A stretch of DNA of 31,278 bases from a virus, in IMG/VR virus record IMGVR_UViG_3300023049_000035, positions 1 to 31,278 of that record. The stretch is one strand, 5' to 3'. Numbering within the stretch: the first letter of the stretch is position 1; each line of letters begins with the position of its first letter. Below, in pieces: positions 14,137 through 28,112 of this stretch. The notes beneath the pieces were generated by a model that was given only the letters and a program-made list of their open reading frames with translations, made no database searches and had not been told where the DNA came from. The translations under genes were made by a program, and so were the position numbers.

Positions 14137-16302
14137 ATGAGTGATCTGATTACAAATAGGCCCTCCCAGCTTACGGCCATGCACAATTACAACCTCCGTA
14201 ACCAAGGCTGGCCCAGGACTCTCACGTGTGTGCGATCCTTGTCTGACCGAGGTGAAGAGGCTGATCCAGTTGCATACACAAAAGAAGTAGCAAACATCTA
14301 CCCTTCCAACGCAGATGTGGTGTACGCAGCTAAAGCGAGCACAGCTAAAAGGCATTCGGCTATTGGAGCCTACGCCCCTACTGAGTTGAAGAAAGCAGTG
14401 TTTGGTAATACTCCTGCTGGTAAAGGACACTACATTCTCCCTGCTTTCGACAGGAACAGGAGTTTGATTAGCGGGATAGCGGGTTTATACAATCAATCTC
14501 GAGATAAAGATAGGTATCGCCCTACTTCTGTAGAGTTTTTCTCTGGTCGCGTATTCTTTTTGATGCCAGATGGAAAAATACTGTACTCCCAGACTATTGA
14601 GGACAGGGACTTCTCCACTTCCGAAAAGTGCTACCAGGAAGCTGACCCTACTGCAGAAGATATTAATGAGCTGGTCGCCACAGATGGCGGCACCATGGTA
14701 ATCCAGGAAGTTGGGGAAGCCTACAAGCTTACCTCGACCGGAACAGAGTTACTACTGTTTGCAGACAATGGCGTGTGGTCCGTCTCCGGATCGGATCAAT
14801 CGAACTTTAAATCCACAGACTTTAGGGTACGGCGGATTACAAACATTGGTGTGACTGGCGTAGACACTGTCATTACAGCAGAGAGCAATGTTATCTACTG
14901 GGGGCAAGGTGGTATCTACATCCTGTCGTCCGACCAAGTAACTGGTGACCTGCAAGCTCAGAACATATCTGAACAAACTATCCAAGAGTTCTACAACAAC
15001 ATCCTACCTGGGGCTCGTGCAAGCGCTAAGGGCTTCTATGATGAGCGTGAACGCAAAGTCATGTGGATGTATAATGATACTGCTGGGTACGACGGTGTCT
15101 CTTTTAAAAATAAGTACAATAGGATACTGTTCTTTGATGTAGTACGTGGGTCTTTCTACACCTACACAGTAGAGTTCCAAGACCAGATTCCATACATGAC
15201 TTCTCTTCTTCAGAAGGAAGCTACTGGGAATAGGGTAGTACCCAAAGATGTTATTCTTACTACTGACTTCCCAACTGGTACGTTTGTTACTACCTGGACT
15301 CTCGTCGACTTTGGTGCCCTTGAGGACCTTCAAATAGAACTTCCTATCGTTGGAGTTAGCCCGCTTAATTTTTCAGTAGACTGGGGTGATGGTACTCAGG
15401 AAATAATTACCAGTTCTGCCGGTAGGTTCCATACGTACTCAGCGGCCGGTACTTACACAGTAACTATTGGTGGAACCATGCCTAAATGGGACTTCGGCTA
15501 CGGCAGTGCAAGCTTTAATAATGTTAAGATTAGGTCTGTCGAGCAGTGGGGCAATATTGAGTGGGGCGCGGACCTTGGTACGTTCATGGTGGATTGCCAG
15601 AACATAGTGTTTAATGCGCCAGATGTCCCTGATTTCTCTAATGTCACCGACCTCAATTTCGCTTTCGCAGGTTGTGTAAACATTACGTCCTTCCCACCAG
15701 TCGATGTCTCGAATGTAACTAACTTCAACGGGACTTGGCGAGATTGTAGTAGTCTTACTGTTATACCAGCTAGTCTCGACTTCAGTTCTGGCACCACATT
15801 TAACGACACTTGGAGGAGATCAGGGATCACCTCTTTCCCAACATTTAATTTCTCTTCTGCCACTACTATGGACTTTGCATGGGCACAGTGCGATTCGTTA
15901 GTAAACATGTCGTCCCAGCCTAGTACTACGAATGTTACTAGTTTTGCGGCAGCTTGGGCTGGGTGTCATAGTTTGAAAAATCTCTCTGTAAACATGACAT
16001 CCGTGACTGACATCAGGGAGTTGCGAGACGGTCCGTATACAAAACCAGTCAGCGGTCCCACTGCTTTGGAGACATTGCTCTTTACAGGGTTGACTAATAA
16101 TACTGGCATCACTGGGGATGGTCTCTTTCTGCTAAGCCTTGGGCTTAGTGATACAGCTTTGAACCAGTTCTTTGCTGCCCTAGGTACTAATACTACCACT
16201 AACACCACCCTCTACATAGCAGGGAACCCTGGTGCAGCCACTTCCGACCATTCCATAGCCAACAATAAAGGTTGGCTTGTTGACGATAATTTTGGGGCCT
16301 GA
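14137..16302 (+). CDS. Tail nozzle middle part fused to a BspA-like domain
   Basis: A 721-residue two-part protein. Residues 1-360 are the central part of a gp12-type nozzle (NYNLRNQGWP near 17-26; FDRNRSLISGIAG; FFSGRVFFLMPDGKILYSQ; WGQGGIYILS; ASAKGFYDERERKVMWMY). From about residue 365-383 it changes into a BspA-like module: FVTTW, then VDWGDGT (414-420) and FHTYSAAGTYTVTI (431-444), then serine/threonine-rich repeats with WRDCSSL, WAQCDSL and WAGCHSL (about 505-630), ending in IANNKGWLV. The C-terminal nozzle domain is absent here and is encoded by the next gene in the same frame after a TGA. No clear Shine-Dalgarno sequence precedes the ATG, which is one base after the previous stop, so coupling or frameshifting is likely. 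Confidence 0.82.
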   Translation: MSDLITNRPSQLTAMHNYNLRNQGWPRTLTCVRSLSDRGEEADPVAYTKEVANIYPSNADVVYAAKASTAKRHSAIGAYAPTELKKAVFGNTPAGKGHYILPAFDRNRSLISGIAGLYNQSRDKDRYRPTSVEFFSGRVFFLMPDGKILYSQTIEDRDFSTSEKCYQEADPTAEDINELVATDGGTMVIQEVGEAYKLTSTGTELLLFADNGVWSVSGSDQSNFKSTDFRVRRITNIGVTGVDTVITAESNVIYWGQGGIYILSSDQVTGDLQAQNISEQTIQEFYNNILPGARASAKGFYDERERKVMWMYNDTAGYDGVSFKNKYNRILFFDVVRGSFYTYTVEFQDQIPYMTSLLQKEATGNRVVPKDVILTTDFPTGTFVTTWTLVDFGALEDLQIELPIVGVSPLNFSVDWGDGTQEIITSSAGRFHTYSAAGTYTVTIGGTMPKWDFGYGSASFNNVKIRSVEQWGNIEWGADLGTFMVDCQNIVFNAPDVPDFSNVTDLNFAFAGCVNITSFPPVDVSNVTNFNGTWRDCSSLTVIPASLDFSSGTTFNDTWRRSGITSFPTFNFSSATTMDFAWAQCDSLVNMSSQPSTTNVTSFAAAWAGCHSLKNLSVNMTSVTDIRELRDGPYTKPVSGPTALETLLFTGLTNNTGITGDGLFLLSLGLSDTALNQFFAALGTNTTTNTTLYIAGNPGAATSDHSIANNKGWLVDDNFGA
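15283..16299 (+). other. BspA-like/PKD cassette inserted in the nozzle
   Basis: The stretch encodes residues 383-721 of the nozzle middle protein and has the same domain order as the separate BspA-like fibre at 4029-5285: [FM]-[VI]-x-T-W/K opening, WGDGT with HTYS-A-GTYT, a WG-[ND]-I element, a degenerate leucine-rich-type repeat region and an NN-x-W ending. It ends with its own stop codon, as if the 3' end of an adhesin gene had been placed inside the nozzle gene. The left edge is approximate. Confidence 0.65.
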
Positions 16303-16305
16303 TCA

Positions 16306-16893
16306 GTGGGTACAATTAATGTCTTTCACGCCGACGACCAAGTAATTGTAAACGTCTTAGAGTCTATCTTTAGCGAGCTCAGTGTAAAAGTACTCAACTT
16401 CAAAGAGACTTCTACAGATGTTTTTCAGTATAACTTTGCAGATTTTAAAAGCCGTACTTTCAAGGATTGGGTCCAAGAAGATGGTGGTATAAACTACCAA
16501 AGTTTTCTAGAAACAGGACATGACTTGCTCGAAGACCCAATCACTATTAAGTATGGTAACTACCTGTACGCATTCTTCTTGAGGACAGAAGATGGGTTTG
16601 ATGATGACCTTAACGCCATGAACCAGAGCTCTTGTCTCTACCGTGCCAAGTGGCACTGGAGTGACAGCGAGGCTAGTGGTAAGTGGTCTCAACAAGAACA
16701 ACTTTACAAACTAAGCCGTCCGTTCTTGCCAGCAAGCGTTAATGATCCCTTTGACTATGGGTTTGAAGTAATCGAAACTCGTAGTAAAATGCGCGGGGAA
16801 GGCAGAGCCTTATCAATAAGATTCGACTCAGAGGAAGGAAAGGACTTTAAACTCCTGGGTTGGGCAATTCCATTTACAGGAGCAGCACGATGA
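16306..16893 (+). CDS. Tail tubular protein B (gp12-like nozzle), C-terminal part
   Basis: A 195-residue protein that matches the C-terminal domain of podovirus tail tube B proteins: SRTFKDWVQEDGG (about residues 49-61), FLRTEDGFDDDLNAMNQSSCLYRAKWHWSDS (split over 91-122), KWSQQEQLYKLSRPF and the closing RGEGRALSIRFDSEEGKDFKLLGW (about 164-188). It is in the same frame as the preceding gene, which ends at TGA 16300-16302; the GTG proposed here lies one codon later. It could be made by restart at this GTG (GGGG about 8 bases upstream) or by readthrough of the TGA. Together the three pieces minus the insert total about 770 residues, close to T7 gp12 (794). Confidence 0.8.
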   Translation: MGTINVFHADDQVIVNVLESIFSELSVKVLNFKETSTDVFQYNFADFKSRTFKDWVQEDGGINYQSFLETGHDLLEDPITIKYGNYLYAFFLRTEDGFDDDLNAMNQSSCLYRAKWHWSDSEASGKWSQQEQLYKLSRPFLPASVNDPFDYGFEVIETRSKMRGEGRALSIRFDSEEGKDFKLLGWAIPFTGAAR

Positions 16894-17348
16894 ATGTAAC
16901 TTACGCAGTAGAAACCTTTGACGAAGCCTTCGGAGAACTTGGAGAACTGTTTGCAGAGAACCACAAAGAGAGTGGCGTCTTCCCAGACAAGATCGACCTC
17001 AATGTTCTGGACGACTTTTACGAGTGGTCTAGTGAGAATGGTAACGTAAGGTTTCATATCGCACGAGATGATGGGAAGGTAGTTGGATACACCGTCACGT
17101 TCATTGGAAACCACCCTCATTACCAAGACAAAGTCTTCGCTACAAATGATGTCTTGTATATCACACCCGATTATCGTAAGACATCTGTGGCTAAAGACTT
17201 GATTGAGTTTGTAGAAAAAGATATGAAAGATACTGGTGTGGATGTAATGTCTTTCCACACTAAGTGTGACAACCCCTGTAGAAAACTAATGGAAAGTGTT
17301 GGCTTTAAAGAAGATGAAATCCAATACTTTAAGTACATAAAGGACTAA
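16890..17348 (+). CDS. GNAT-family N-acetyltransferase
   Basis: A 152-residue protein from the ATG at 16890, chosen over an upstream TTG because AGGAG lies about 8 bases before it and it overlaps the previous stop as ATGA. It has the GNAT pattern: GKVVGYTVTFIG (beta strands), VLYITPDYRKTSVAKDLIEFVEKD (acetyl-CoA loop and helix, split over about 89-112) and a C-terminal NPCRKLMESVGFKED element typical of the family. GNAT enzymes transfer acetyl groups from acetyl-CoA to amines. The usual R/Q-x-x-G-x-G/A loop is degenerate (RKTSVA). Its target is unknown; the location between the tail and internal-protein genes suggests modification of a virion or host protein during late infection. Confidence 0.8.
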   Translation: MNVTYAVETFDEAFGELGELFAENHKESGVFPDKIDLNVLDDFYEWSSENGNVRFHIARDDGKVVGYTVTFIGNHPHYQDKVFATNDVLYITPDYRKTSVAKDLIEFVEKDMKDTGVDVMSFHTKCDNPCRKLMESVGFKEDEIQYFKYIKD

Positions 17349-17354
17349 TATCAA

Positions 17355-17846
17355 ATGTCAGGCGTCCCTGCAGTATTAGCAGCAGTAACGGCTATCTCCG
17401 CTATCGGCGGCGGTGTCGCAACTGCCGTGGCCTCTAAGAAGAGGAATAAAGCTGAGTCCCGTGCTCGGAAGATCGAGCAAGCAGCAGCATCCCTGGAGAA
17501 CCAACGTCGCATACGCAGGGCAATTGCTCAACGACGTATTCAAGAAGCTGAGATTCAGTCCCTTGGGGTTGATCAAGGCGTTCAAGGAAGCTCTTCCATA
17601 GCAGGTGCCAGGTCTTCTCTTGTCACTCAGACAGGTGCCAACATCGGTGCAGCTCGGACACAGTTCGGTGCTGAGCAAGGGCGTGCTAACGTTCTAGCCA
17701 GTGGCTACCGTAAAGGTGCTAAGTATGATAGCTTCGGCTCTATCCTTGGCAGTGTTGGTCAAGCTTCTCAAGGCCTTGGTGGTTTCATAGAAAGGAATCC
17801 TGACGCCACACTTAAAGATTTCCTTCCAACCTTTGGACGTAGATAA
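17355..17846 (+). CDS. Internal virion protein (gp14-like)
   Basis: A 163-residue protein with an N-terminal hydrophobic Ala/Gly/Val segment (about residues 4-26), a Lys/Arg/Gln/Ala-rich helix (27-70) and a Gly/Ser/Ala-rich remainder. This is the pattern of T7 gp14-like internal proteins, which are ejected first and form a pore in the outer membrane. T7 gp14 is 196 residues. It is followed by two large internal proteins, as expected of a core/ejection operon. The stop overlaps the next start as TAATG. The RBS is weak (AAGGAC about 11 bases upstream). Confidence 0.78.
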   Translation: MSGVPAVLAAVTAISAIGGGVATAVASKKRNKAESRARKIEQAAASLENQRRIRRAIAQRRIQEAEIQSLGVDQGVQGSSSIAGARSSLVTQTGANIGAARTQFGAEQGRANVLASGYRKGAKYDSFGSILGSVGQASQGLGGFIERNPDATLKDFLPTFGRR

Positions 17847-23254: not shown

Positions 23255-25173
23255 TGGCAGAATTTCGTCAACAAGGACCTGAGGTACAGCCTGTAAGGCG
23301 GGACTTGTCAGGGGCACGCAGGTTCGAAGGAACCGCAGGCTTGGCTGGGGCAGTGCTAGGGTTTCTCCCAGGCTACACTGAGCAGCTCTCTCAGAGTGCT
23401 GATAGAGAGTTCGATAATAAAATCGCCTTAGCACTTACTGACCCCAAGGTTACCGGTATCAACCGTGACCCTGAGACAGAAGAGATTGAAATCTCAGCGG
23501 CTAAGCTTAAGCGAAGTGACGGACAACGTTCGCTGCATAACCAGTCACGTGTACGTGCTACTGTGGAAGCCCGCCGTCTGGCAGAAAAGTACCCTCATCG
23601 GGCAGCCGAAGTATTCCAGAAGTTTGGCCTGATGACTGGGCAACCTATCCTGGCAGCAGCTAGGGATATTGAAGAGGAAGCTCGTCGCCCTATCTTGGAG
23701 CAACAGGCCCAGGTAGACCAGTGGTCTTTGGCCGAAGGCATTTCTCTTTCTGTACCTCGTGCAGAGAGGACAGAGCAGTTCATGAATGCCTCTGCACGTA
23801 TGCAAGAAGCAGCTCAGGCTCGTAGGGAAGTAGAGATTCTACAGAACCAAGGCATCCTTACAAACCACAGGGCACGAAGAACTCTGCAGAAGGAGAGCGG
23901 AGCTCTTTACGAGGAGATGTCAGCTCTTGTAACTCAAATAACCAGTGACATTGATCCTGCTAATATCTCAGCAGCTGATGCTACCGAACGGGTAGCTGAA
24001 TACAGAGGGTTGATTGACTCTCGTATTGACGAAGTGATCGAGTCTTACGACGGCCACATCACACGGCAGGAAGCGGAGCAAATCCTAGCTCCGAGTATTC
24101 GACTTTTCCAAACAGCCGTCGCCTGGGTTAACGGAGAAACTTCTCTTGCCCACCTGGAGAGCGCTAACAAGTTTCTTCGGGAAGCACATGACAATCAGTG
24201 GCTCAACACCCCAGGGTTCCAAGACCTTGAGCGCAGGGCTTCCCTGATCAGGGACTTGCCGGCTAACTGGGGCACCCCGCTAGTCCAAGCCAGGGAAGGT
24301 AACGCCTTCTTTAAAGAGTACAAGGCAGTATTGGAAGCTAACCGCAGAGTTAGGAATGGGAACTCTAACCCTATCGCTGATGGCCAAGAAGAAGGTATGT
24401 CAGACAGGGAACTTGGCAGACTCACAGAATCTGCTATGAAGTACTTGGCAAGTGTTAGTCAGAACGAGGATGCAAATCCAATCGAGGTGGCTACAGCTAC
24501 TGAAATGGTTCTCACTGCATACACAAACCAATTCTCAGAAGACCCCTCCAGTGTACCTACTAGCGTATACGACTCTGTTCTCTTTGCTCTTGGTGACTCT
24601 CAGGTAGGACCATGGCTCAACGACGTCGGCGCCTTCGGAGAGAATGCTCAGGCCTTCCGTAACTACAGGCGCATGACGCAAAGGTACATGAGAGACATCA
24701 CGGAAGACGTGGCCTCAGAAGTACAGCGTCTTAGTACAGATCCAAATGTATCCTCCGTAGCGTCTGCCGCTTTCTCCCTCCCGTTTGGTGGGATTAGTAC
24801 AGTAGGCCGTAGTATCAGGGAGATGACGAGAGGTATCATCGAGTTCGACATCAAGAATGATGGACGTGTGGTAGCCACCCCTGTTAACTCCGGTGACAGG
24901 AGGATGTCAGACGCAGCTGACTCGTTTAACGAGAAATACTCTGACCGTTTCGGCATGGTATCCAGGTCACAAGCCCACTTGTTCGGCCTTACTTCTAGCG
25001 ACGACTATAAGCAAGCGGCTAATAGATTCTTGGATGGAGCAGGCCTTGATACCCCAGACCCAGACACTCTTAACAGTGCTTCGATGGACAGGGCTATTGA
25101 GAACCTTCGAGCTCAAGGATTCTCCGAAGAGCAAATTCAAATGGCAGTTGAAGAGTACAGGAACCAACAATAA
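23254..25173 (+). CDS. Internal virion protein (gp15-like)
   Basis: A 639-residue, strongly helical, Glu/Arg/Ala-rich protein next to the giant ejection protein. The N-terminus (about residues 28-45, GLAGAVLGFLPGYTEQL) is mildly hydrophobic and the rest soluble. Size and context match T7 gp15 (747 residues), which forms the periplasmic part of the ejection channel together with gp16. In T7 the order is 14-15-16, whereas here the longer protein comes first. No enzyme motif is visible. It overlaps both neighbours by one base (TAATG), consistent with balanced co-translation. Confidence 0.72.
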   Translation: MAEFRQQGPEVQPVRRDLSGARRFEGTAGLAGAVLGFLPGYTEQLSQSADREFDNKIALALTDPKVTGINRDPETEEIEISAAKLKRSDGQRSLHNQSRVRATVEARRLAEKYPHRAAEVFQKFGLMTGQPILAAARDIEEEARRPILEQQAQVDQWSLAEGISLSVPRAERTEQFMNASARMQEAAQARREVEILQNQGILTNHRARRTLQKESGALYEEMSALVTQITSDIDPANISAADATERVAEYRGLIDSRIDEVIESYDGHITRQEAEQILAPSIRLFQTAVAWVNGETSLAHLESANKFLREAHDNQWLNTPGFQDLERRASLIRDLPANWGTPLVQAREGNAFFKEYKAVLEANRRVRNGNSNPIADGQEEGMSDRELGRLTESAMKYLASVSQNEDANPIEVATATEMVLTAYTNQFSEDPSSVPTSVYDSVLFALGDSQVGPWLNDVGAFGENAQAFRNYRRMTQRYMRDITEDVASEVQRLSTDPNVSSVASAAFSLPFGGISTVGRSIREMTRGIIEFDIKNDGRVVATPVNSGDRRMSDAADSFNEKYSDRFGMVSRSQAHLFGLTSSDDYKQAANRFLDGAGLDTPDPDTLNSASMDRAIENLRAQGFSEEQIQMAVEEYRNQQ

Positions 25174-28112
25174 TGGCCTCCCCTAAACTCCTGAAAAGAG
25201 CTGTAGACCCCACAGAAGTAACTCGGATTGAGAAGGCGTTAAGTCAGTCTATCAGTCGTCAGCAGAGGATTGGCGAAGAGTCCGACGTTATTACCCAAGA
25301 GCTACGGAAGTTCATTGACAGTGAGCAAGGTCAACTTGCTGGTGAAGTCGGTGATCGTGTGGCTAGGGAGAGGGCGTCTGAACCTAAGTTTGATGGTACA
25401 GGCCCAAGGCCTCACCAACAACAGCAGCGTCAGCGTCAAGAGACCTTCATAGGTCTTTCTGGTATGAGGTCTCGTGCTGTCAATAACCCTGAAGAAGCAA
25501 CCAATATCTCCAGGGCCACGGATATGAATGTGGATGGGCATAGTGCCAGGGAAATCTGGGAAGAGACTGGTGTAATCTATGGCCCTGATGGCCACCGTCG
25601 CATGGAAATCCCTGACTACGACATGGATTACAACAAGCCTCTGATGGATCACATACTGGTAAATGGGCCAGGGTCTCTCGTTAGACTTGAGGCATTGGTT
25701 AAGCATGATGGACTTAGGGAAGTCTACCCTGAAATCTTCTCCACTAGGGTCAGGGTCATTACCCGCCCGGAAAAGTTCATTGCTAGGGTACAGTTTCAGA
25801 CAGCAGAAGGCAAGCCTGTAATCGAAGTAAATCAAAACTACTTCAAAGAACTCAATGCATACGAACAGAGTGCTGTTGTCATGCATGAGGTACAGCATAT
25901 TATTCAGAATCTAGAAGGCTTGCCCGCTGGTACTAACCCTAACTTCGAGGCTCTCCGTTACCTGCAGAACAATATCCCTGAAAACTTGTTGGGCCACATT
26001 CCTGGTGGACCAGACCCGGCTGGAAGCCTTCTCTCTACTACGAGGAGTATCCTTAATGATCTAGTTAGAGGGGCTGCCGAAAGAGAATTAACCCCTGCTG
26101 AACGTCAGGATATGATGAAATACGTTCAGATTGAAAAGCTAGCAGCAAGGGCTATTCAGGAGGGCCGCTCTGCATACTTCCGTAACATCGGTGAGGTGGA
26201 AGCGTTTGATGTGGAGAACCGTCTCGAAGCTATGGGGCTCCTCGACGATTTCCCACCTGCCCTTATCCAAGCATTGGAGGAAGACCATCTCGACAAACTA
26301 TACCAAAGACAAAACGAGGGGCCAGGTATCTCAGAAGCCCGTGGCAGACGCCCAGGCGGACGTACTACAGACCCTCGCAGGCTCCCCTCCCTCCTGCCTA
26401 ACGGCATCCACTATGACAACAACGGCTTCCCCTTCAAGGTTAAGGACAGGCGCATAGTTCGTATGTCTGACGAGGAGACGGAAGAGGCACTTACAAATGC
26501 ACCCTTGACTGGGGAAGAGATTGATGAATCTGTCCTGATCCAGAGGGCTAGGCAAGAGAGCCAGGAACGAGCTCGTAAGGCTAGGCAGACCAAGCTGGAT
26601 AACGAGAAGAAAGCTCGTCAACAGAAAGAGATGGAGGATTTCAAGAACTCCGAAGAGTTCAGGAGACTCCAAGAACAGTCCCTCTCAAGGGTACAACGTG
26701 CACGAGAGCAACGGTTTAGGGAGTCTGAAGAGTTCCAAGAGCTGCAACGACAGAACTTGAACCGTAGCAGAACTGCGCTGGGACAAAAGCCAGAAGAAGC
26801 TCCAACCCCTCAGTCAGAGCCTACTACTGCCAGTACCCAAAACACTTCGAAGCCAGAAGATAGCTTCGAGAAGAAAAAGAAAGATGCTATCGCAAGGGGT
26901 AAGGATAAGAGGGAAGGTAATGTTGAGGAAAGCAAGGAGAGCCTGCTTGCTGGACAGCAAGGGCAGTTCGATGAAGCAAGGCTAGCAGCAGAGAACGAGG
27001 TATTCGCTGCTCAACGAGACTCTATCTTCGAGCCTGCCACTATGGCTCAGATGGATGATGTTGCCTTGTTTGAGGACATGCAAGGTTTCCTTGATGAAAC
27101 CAATGCTCTTGTGGCAGATGGTAAACTACCTGAAGACAGGGCCCAGTCTCTCCTTAATCTCTACCTTGAGAGAGTAGATGCAGCTGGTAAGTCTGACCAG
27201 ATAGAAGATATGCTGTCCAAGCAGGAGACTACTCCTCAGCAGCAACAGGCACAAGCCCAAGGACGCCCACTGTTCCGTGGACTTAAGCCTAATGGACGCC
27301 CACGTGGCTACCCAGGCGAGTTCTACACAGAACTAGAAGGCCTTGCGGGCAGGTACGCCGGTGCAGATGGGTCCATGATCACACGTGAAGAGCTACCAGA
27401 GCAGCCCTTTAACGTGGACGCTGTAGCAGACATGCCTCAGGAAGAGCGTATGCAGATGCTGAGTGAGTTCACTGAGTTTATGAAGGCTCGCCATCCGGGT
27501 GTCCCTGAGGAAGAGCTCATTGGGCCAGGTCAATCAGACTTTGCCTACCTAGACCGGGTACTTGGAGAGCCTTTCGAGACTGACTTCATCTACCCTACTC
27601 AGGATGATGTAGACTTCTTGAGAAGCAAAGGGTATGACTCTGTATTCTTTGGACAAGAGGGTGGAGAAGAAGTGAACAGCTGGTTCATCTTCGATCAGCC
27701 TGAAGCTAGGCAGCCTACTCCTCAACAGCAGCCTCAAGCACAAGCTTTTAGGCCTGGTATGGCCACACAAAGAAACGAGTTTGGCGACACAGCCGCAGCA
27801 TTTAGCACTGTCAATATGACAGAAGACGGTGGCAGTAGGTTCCTCAAACAGATCACTAAAGACCAACTAGAGAGGAATGTTTCCGTCTCGCTTAAGAACC
27901 CCATCCGGCTGAAGGACGGGGGCAGGTTGTCTGGATTCACTGATCCGATAACTCAGACTACCATGTATGGGTACAACAAGAACGGAGAGCTATTCACTTG
28001 GAGACGAGGAAGTATCGACCCTGAAGAACTTGTATCCTCAAGAGACAACAATAAGACTAGAGACGCTCTCAAAGAGTTCTTAGAGACTCAAAGAAACAAA
28101 GGCAATCTCTAA
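25173..28112 (+). CDS. Polyvalent virion protein with HExxH metallopeptidase-like domain and possible ART-like domain
   Basis: A 979-residue multidomain protein closing the late operon. Residues 180-350 form a zinc-peptidase-like domain: VVMHEVQHIIQ contains HEVQH (238-242), followed by EGLPAGTNP and a possible third ligand in NIGEVEAF (E341/E343). This arrangement recalls phage polyvalent-protein-associated domains with HEIQH...GEVEAR. Residues 450-600 are a charged coiled coil. Residues 698-845 (PLFRGLKP, GEFYTELEGLAGRYAG, GYDSVFF, WFIFDQPEA) resemble ADP-ribosyltransferase-like domains of polyvalent proteins, less certainly. Gln/Pro-rich linkers flank that region (688-697, 850-858). It is probably packaged and ejected, and may act on host proteins; this is inference. 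Confidence 0.72.
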   Translation: MASPKLLKRAVDPTEVTRIEKALSQSISRQQRIGEESDVITQELRKFIDSEQGQLAGEVGDRVARERASEPKFDGTGPRPHQQQQRQRQETFIGLSGMRSRAVNNPEEATNISRATDMNVDGHSAREIWEETGVIYGPDGHRRMEIPDYDMDYNKPLMDHILVNGPGSLVRLEALVKHDGLREVYPEIFSTRVRVITRPEKFIARVQFQTAEGKPVIEVNQNYFKELNAYEQSAVVMHEVQHIIQNLEGLPAGTNPNFEALRYLQNNIPENLLGHIPGGPDPAGSLLSTTRSILNDLVRGAAERELTPAERQDMMKYVQIEKLAARAIQEGRSAYFRNIGEVEAFDVENRLEAMGLLDDFPPALIQALEEDHLDKLYQRQNEGPGISEARGRRPGGRTTDPRRLPSLLPNGIHYDNNGFPFKVKDRRIVRMSDEETEEALTNAPLTGEEIDESVLIQRARQESQERARKARQTKLDNEKKARQQKEMEDFKNSEEFRRLQEQSLSRVQRAREQRFRESEEFQELQRQNLNRSRTALGQKPEEAPTPQSEPTTASTQNTSKPEDSFEKKKKDAIARGKDKREGNVEESKESLLAGQQGQFDEARLAAENEVFAAQRDSIFEPATMAQMDDVALFEDMQGFLDETNALVADGKLPEDRAQSLLNLYLERVDAAGKSDQIEDMLSKQETTPQQQQAQAQGRPLFRGLKPNGRPRGYPGEFYTELEGLAGRYAGADGSMITREELPEQPFNVDAVADMPQEERMQMLSEFTEFMKARHPGVPEEELIGPGQSDFAYLDRVLGEPFETDFIYPTQDDVDFLRSKGYDSVFFGQEGGEEVNSWFIFDQPEARQPTPQQQPQAQAFRPGMATQRNEFGDTAAAFSTVNMTEDGGSRFLKQITKDQLERNVSVSLKNPIRLKDGGRLSGFTDPITQTTMYGYNKNGELFTWRRGSIDPEELVSSRDNNKTRDALKEFLETQRNKGNL

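Follow-up and report, generated by a model that had tools for sequence, protein, structure and literature searches.

The polyvalent proteins of phages and conjugative elements are the closest described systems to the protein analysed here, and this kind of protein is already known. Iyer et al. 2017 (PMC5512222) propose that such proteins enter the host by injection and that their MPTases process the chain itself or attack host proteins. In the same paper, the polyvalent MPTase core is described as a three-stranded sheet with an N-terminal helix and two C-terminal helices, and the catalytic set of ART-PolyVal as H on strand 1, Y on strand 2 and D on strand 5. The protein reported here, P0001, resembles the polyvalent proteins in that an LPD, a zincin MPTase and possibly an ADP-ribosyltransferase (ART) domain are present in one chain encoded beside virion genes. 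However, P0001 has one LPD and one clear enzyme domain, with the ART over no cut-off, and is encoded by its own gene behind the ejection proteins instead of being fused to them.

A more specific comparison is provided by Pseudomonas phage AF, the only phage matched by P0001 among 50,697 phage records using tblastn (two records of the same phage; E 8e-4, residues 120-350). AF gp16 (NC_019923) is like P0001 in that LPD23 is followed by VVMHEVQHxIQ and GEVEA, with 31% identity over the aligned region, and both lie near internal virion proteins, gp16 being two genes after the annotated ones. By contrast, AF gp16 holds the LPD23-zincin inside a chain of 2213 aa that also has LPD22, while P0001 is a separate protein of 979 aa. 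Among the matches listed for podovirus internal virion proteins and metallopeptidases, no title describes P0001, and our literature search, with most subscription journals outside its scope, found nothing on polyvalent proteins in Zobellviridae.

The window, i.e. the whole stretch of DNA that was analysed, is a virus record of 31,278 bases whose portal and terminase place the phage near Zobellviridae. The portal is 44-47% identical to those of Celeribacter phage P12053L, Lentibacter phages ICBM1-3 and Pseudomonas PA11-like phages and 66-70% identical to those of five IMG/VR contigs, with one further contig being near-identical. The virus that carries the gene is a short-tailed, Zobellviridae-like podovirus. 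Rightwards from the tail appendage genes, the operon encodes a GNAT acetyltransferase, a 163-aa protein, ejection proteins of 1802 aa and 639 aa and, last, P0001 (Table 1). The same order is found in the operon of Klebsiella phage Klyazma, the internal virion proteins of which are named A, B, D and C by its authors (PMC9960094). Each of the final three genes of the operon is joined to its predecessor by a TAATG junction, its start lying at the stop of the gene before it; the genes for the 639-aa protein and P0001 overlap by one base, with position 25173 being the final stop base (caaTAATG). The larger ORFs beyond 28112 lie on the opposite strand, and no terminator pattern was found immediately 3' of 28112. 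An earlier note, made from the sequence of the window, had described P0001 as encoded right after the internal proteins. This description holds: the ORF is real and at the place given, with an ATG start and a stop codon, the PHROG 12003 gene lies two places upstream, and the TAATG junction links P0001 to the preceding gene. The 639-aa gene weakly matches the gene at the equivalent place in another phage (G004; E 6e-4), and the large ejection protein, used as a three-row alignment, fetched five loci. An Rfam scan of the window gave no family at its threshold.

Table 1. Features of the ejection operon and of P0001, with positions in the window
Feature	Position	Strand	Basis
GNAT acetyltransferase, ejection operon	16860..17348	+	Acetyltransf_1 E 1.8e-10; PHROG 1249 E 8.1e-21
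163-aa protein, IVP-B position	17355..17846	+	PHROG 8168 E 4.7e-15; placed as in Klyazma
Large ejection protein, 1802 aa	17846..23254	+	PHROG 12003 "internal virion protein" E 5.5e-33
Second ejection protein, 639 aa	23254..25173	+	Operon position equals that of IVP-C of Klebsiella phage Klyazma
P0001, 979-aa ejection-operon protein	25173..28112	+	ORF from ATG to stop, translation
LPD23 (PF18838), residues 110-151	25500..25625	+	Pfam E 3.2e-7, 30.5 bits, cut-off 27
Zincin-like metallopeptidase domain, about residues 155-360	25635..26252	+	50-row alignment, model, zincin fold matches
HEVQH, residues 238-242, predicted zinc ligands and general base	25884..25898	+	Invariant H, E and H; model helix 135-154
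GEVEA, residues 340-344, candidate third zinc ligand E341 or E343	26190..26204	+	Conservation; model helix 245-264
Long helical linker, about residues 452-541	26526..26795	+	Model helices 358-397 and 400-441, single sequence only
Possible ADP-ribosyltransferase-like domain, residues 698-850	27264..27722	+	Model with 75 ART rows, fold matches
C-terminal region, residues 863-979	27759..28109	+	No significant Pfam or PHROG match; low-confidence model

The tail appendage gene (window 14137-16893) is in two parts, an ORF of 721 aa and one of 195 aa. The first 374 residues of the former and the 195-aa ORF correspond to halves 3-370 and 372-568 of a single gene in relatives; in the window, these halves are separated by about 350 additional residues, which may represent an intein, an insertion or a true gene split.

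P0001 had no match in PHROG at E<=1, no whole-length relatives were found in viral contigs using peptide patterns, and it was matched in none of the six portal relatives. Within the protein, LPD23 exceeds its Pfam cut-off and, searched alone, gives E 1e-7. PhageMetallopep (PF18894) matches residues 210-247 with E 3.6e-4 and 21 bits, below its cut-off of 23.7. The alignment of LPD23-zincin domains (A4) was started from a two-row alignment that fetched 69 loci from viral contigs, VVMHEVQ being one of two search patterns. It consists of the window and 49 domains from 75 ORFs matched by an iterative profile, only non-duplicate domains of 150 to 335 residues being retained and the piece of the window among these ORFs being set aside. 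In A4, H238, E239 and H242 are present in all 50 proteins, as are E248 and G253, while Q241 and Q245 are present in 49 of 50. Among rows with a letter at the GEVEA columns, G340 is kept in 44 of 44, E341 in 43 of 44 and E343 in 41 of 44. Because the search string VVMHEVQ occurs in only four of the 50 rows (the window, L002, L048 and L032), selection by the search pattern does not account for the motif conservation in most rows. Thus, judged from the alignment, the peptidase motif is more than chance. Residue 345 is F in the window and R in 40 of 43 relatives; with F345 in place of the conserved arginine, the zinc site may be altered.

A model of residues 95-979 was built with the 49 LPD23-zincin rows, and block pLDDT values in residues 95-354 were 82-97. 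The zincin part of the model has an N-terminal helical part followed by three strands (model residues 98-102, 112-117 and 120-126); HEVQH then sits on a helix at 135-154, and GEVEA on a further one at 245-264 that is separated from it by inserted helices. In this model, the secondary structure matches the polyvalent MPTase core, with both motifs on the expected helices. Fold matches were read among the best 50, and absence from these was not taken as evidence. Foldseek gave no match to the zincin model at E<=0.001, its first rows including MATCAP and SPRTN (6mdw; probability 0.66). In a second look, the model matched selecase (4qhj; Z 6.7, 4.5 A, 96 aligned), SPRTN (6mdx; Z 6.6, 3.7 A, 103 aligned) and the jannalysin zymogen (4jix; Z 6.0). 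These three matches cover the sheet and the helices, and the PDB entries that match over the full domain are zincins; unrelated helical chains reached equal Z while covering only the helices around 160-243. The earlier note had suggested a zinc peptidase-type fold from HEVQH and GEVEA, with structure prediction and fold comparison of the region as a check. LPD23 over the Pfam cut-off, the conservation of the motifs, the predicted fold and the zincin matches all support this suggestion, with both secondary structure and fold matches fitting a zincin.

The same note had read a pattern in the second half of P0001 as recalling ART-type domains. The strings that it quoted are all present, i.e. HEVQH and GEVEA in the peptidase (Table 1) as well as FRG (701-703), FYTE (within GEFYTE, 715-720), GYDSVFF (820-826) and FIFDQP (within WFIFDQP, 837-843). 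ART-PolyVal (PF18760) did not match the window at E<=10, nor did it match the ART segment alone, and neither relatives of the ART region in viral contigs nor relatives of 27243-28109 in genome contigs were found. Sequence tests were taken on residues 691-862, with shuffles and other proteins of the window as controls. An 8-domain ART profile gave an hhalign score of 4.6, with shuffles reaching up to 17.9, and the 1.5 bits obtained with a 7-domain ART HMM were equalled by 25 of the 827 shuffles listed (1000 made). The 86-domain ART profile, for which 86 of 98 domains from 80 loci were kept as distinct and 75 rows were passed to structure prediction, gave an hhalign P of 6.4e-4 on GYDSVFF...WFIFD alone; none of 200 shuffles scored as high, but a tail-protein segment with GYDGVSF did better (3.6e-4). 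Similarly, the semi-global score of the region (z 3.3) was reached in two of 400 shuffles and exceeded by two of 102 other window segments, the best of which had 17.8 vs 3.3. Because unrelated segments of the window score higher, we do not count these tests as support. With the 86-domain profile (hhalign), the positive controls were detected with 98.25% probability (the G002 protein described below) and 98.2% (an L100 segment). As sequence alone, the ART motif is not more than chance.

The catalytic His column of the ART family (H in 75 of 75 others) is R702 in the window; the Tyr column (Y in 65 of 75) is F717, with Y718 adjacent; the E column (43 rows) is S836, with other acids near; and the placement of the latter two depends on the alignment. 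QIK of the family reads EAR in the window. With R702 in the catalytic His column, the region fails the defining His of ART-PolyVal, although the fold may be shared. Conserved columns of the family that are kept in the window are G715, A725, Y728, P745, G820, D822 and F840.

Modelled without ART rows, the region is of low confidence. By contrast, residues 698-850 modelled together with 75 ART-PolyVal rows gave a pLDDT of 80.5 and a pTM of 0.73, with an ART-like strand order: strands at 700-704 and 715-719, a helix at 722-729, a strand at 734-738, helices, and strands at 823-829 and 832-840. In the alignment used initially (A9), a Gln-rich stretch was placed on strand 1, and the query was trimmed to start at 698 (A10), a choice that favours reading FRG as YHG. 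The best Foldseek match in the PDB was 6kyf (E 2.8e-3, prob 0.99; 13% identity over 117 aligned), which is AcrIF11, an ART anti-CRISPR, according to PMC12421852; AcrIF11 is a free-standing chain of 137 residues, unlike the ART-like region inside P0001, and the model matched to it was made with ART rows. The top second-look match was residues 1422-1603 of chain B of the cyanophage A4 pre-ejectosome (PDB 9k3a; Z 6.8, 5.1 A, 129 aligned), a chain of an ejection complex with only 12% identity to the region. Among the best 50 second-look matches, we take 49 to be ART-superfamily enzymes, judging by their titles and names, and the viral fold matches include proteins named ART-PolyVal-like and the vRNAP of a Roseobacter phage. 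Because the rows supplied to the model were ARTs, the ART fold may be partly imposed. Thus, the ART proposal is plausible: the strings exist and a model made with ART rows has an ART fold, but the sequence profiles do no better than with an unrelated protein and the H, Y and E positions are substituted. Compared with ART-PolyVal (PF18760), P0001 possibly shares the fold and the order of motifs while lacking a significant profile match. Residues 698-850 probably form an ART-like fold that has diverged and is an optional part of P0001. As a separate observation, the solved cyanophage A4 pre-ejectosome may itself already hold an ART-like domain in chain B (1422-1603).

The gene behind the second ejection protein, referred to here as the slot, was read in 24 distinct operons, comprising 14 named phages and 10 IMG/VR records including the window; near-identical G006 and L092 were counted together with G002 and L091. 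The slot is an LPD23-zincin in two of the 24, the window and IMGVR_UViG_3300025944_000023 (G015), the portal of which is 39% identical to that of the window. The two proteins are alike in domain, operon slot and TAATG start, but that of G015 has only 526 aa, and its record gave no ART-PolyVal match. In one operon (G002), the slot encodes a 298-aa protein (L009:5471-6367, minus strand) that matches ART-PolyVal with E 2.1e-5, below the Pfam cut-off, and with 98% in hhalign. Two further slots (G004 and L091) hold members of a common family (36% identical, E 4e-29), and in the remaining 19 the position either lacks any ORF of 100 aa or is occupied by lysis genes, by a gene resembling those for tail fibres or collagen, or by small unassigned genes, with several of these labels being as annotated or assigned by eye. 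The G004 and L091 proteins (L014:4909-5610, minus strand, and L091:16845-18284, plus strand) share the string GQEGLxRAxAAxxLGxxxIPVL, and their domain is reminiscent of ParB/Srx-like domains. No significant shared sequence was found between P0001 and the G002 protein (best blastp E 2.8). The two contain a look-alike string, PSLLPNGIHYDNNGFPFKVKDRRI in the window (26385-26456, near residues 405-428 and a predicted hairpin) and PSLTPLEDGVYRDDAGKTFIVENGKI in the G002 protein, with a blastp E of about 6, i.e. possibly by chance.

Among 49 Zobellviridae-like records, many of which are fragments, the LPD23-zincin profile matches two, both used in building the profile, and PF18760 also matches two, one weakly over 18 positions. 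Because most of these records lack the gene, P0001 is not needed for ejection in general. In the records behind L057, L054, L089, L041 and L031, LPD23-zincin and ART-PolyVal occur in one long frame. Among the 32 matched ORFs of <=1000 aa listed, many have only 300-450 aa, one being the piece of the window and some being cut by contig ends.

Based on these data, we suggest that P0001 is fairly likely to be an injected polyvalent-type peptidase. In this model, P0001 would be co-translated with the two large ejection proteins, most likely be packaged alongside them, and enter the host with the DNA. H238 and H242, together with E341 or E343, would hold zinc, and E239 would activate water to cut a peptide bond. 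The region of residues 698-850 may bind a target or NAD instead of using a classical H-Y-D/E site. That P0001 would be made late and next to the ejection proteins suggests packaging, and the carriage in the capsid and delivery with the DNA that the earlier note envisaged are consistent with the operon position, the coupling of the genes and the polyvalent-protein hypothesis (PMC5512222).

Alternatively, the zincin could cleave the polypeptide it belongs to, or the large ejection proteins, either ahead of ejection or while it proceeds, freeing the ART-like and C-terminal parts. Self-processing is what Iyer and others favour for polyvalent MPTases, and it is proposed from the processing of P1 DdrB (PMC5512222). 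The Gln-rich stretches on both sides of residues 698-850, and the AF-like relatives in which the zincin lies in the middle of proteins of >2000 aa, would fit such a function, while the G015 protein of 526 aa has little else to release and many of the 32 listed ORFs have only 300-450 aa. We consider self-processing as the main function rather unlikely. Because the LPD23-zincin stands alone at 526 aa in the equivalent slot of the distant phage G015, we take it to be somewhat more likely that the peptidase acts in trans, with a host protein or a virion protein as its target, than that it only cuts itself. A structural accessory of the ejection channel or of its assembly, in which the zincin no longer cuts and the ART-like fold has no enzyme activity, strikes us as improbable. 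The location of the gene at the end of the ejection operon, the replacement of H, Y and E by R702, F717 and S836, the unusual F345 and the top second-look match to a pre-ejectosome chain point in this direction. However, the predicted zincin ligands and general base are all kept, which a dead fold need not do, and other Zobellviridae do without the gene.

A separate question is whether residues 698-850 are an ART at all, and there is a real possibility, which we favour slightly less than its opposite, that they are not, the motif string being chance and the model having been pulled to an ART fold by the supplied rows. The region has no Pfam hit, its best hhalign P (6.4e-4) is beaten by the unrelated tail-protein segment (3.6e-4), two of 102 window segments score above it, and its model without ART rows is of low confidence. 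On the other hand, the 76-row model, with its pLDDT of 80.5, has the strand order and fold matches of an ART, the seven columns from G715 to F840 listed above are kept, and a likely ART-PolyVal domain is present at the equivalent gene position in another phage (G002).

Returning to P0001 as an injected peptidase, we speculate that the slot might be a cargo slot of this lineage, through which unrelated host-acting entry enzymes are swapped at one coupled position. Here, the cargo would be an LPD23-zincin joined to an ART fold similar to that of AcrIF11; this fold would have lost its classical catalytic residues and might now direct the peptidase, as a module for target binding or anti-defence. 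We regard this extended reading as unlikely. If it were true, injected effectors could be listed by inspecting this single position in a large number of podovirus genomes. P0001 offers a compact, separable example of a predicted injected peptidase: whereas the LPD23-zincin of many relatives lies deep inside very large proteins, the window and G015 each encode it as a single gene of a short operon. As a consequence, packaging, injection and cleavage would be testable by deleting or mutating a single gene.
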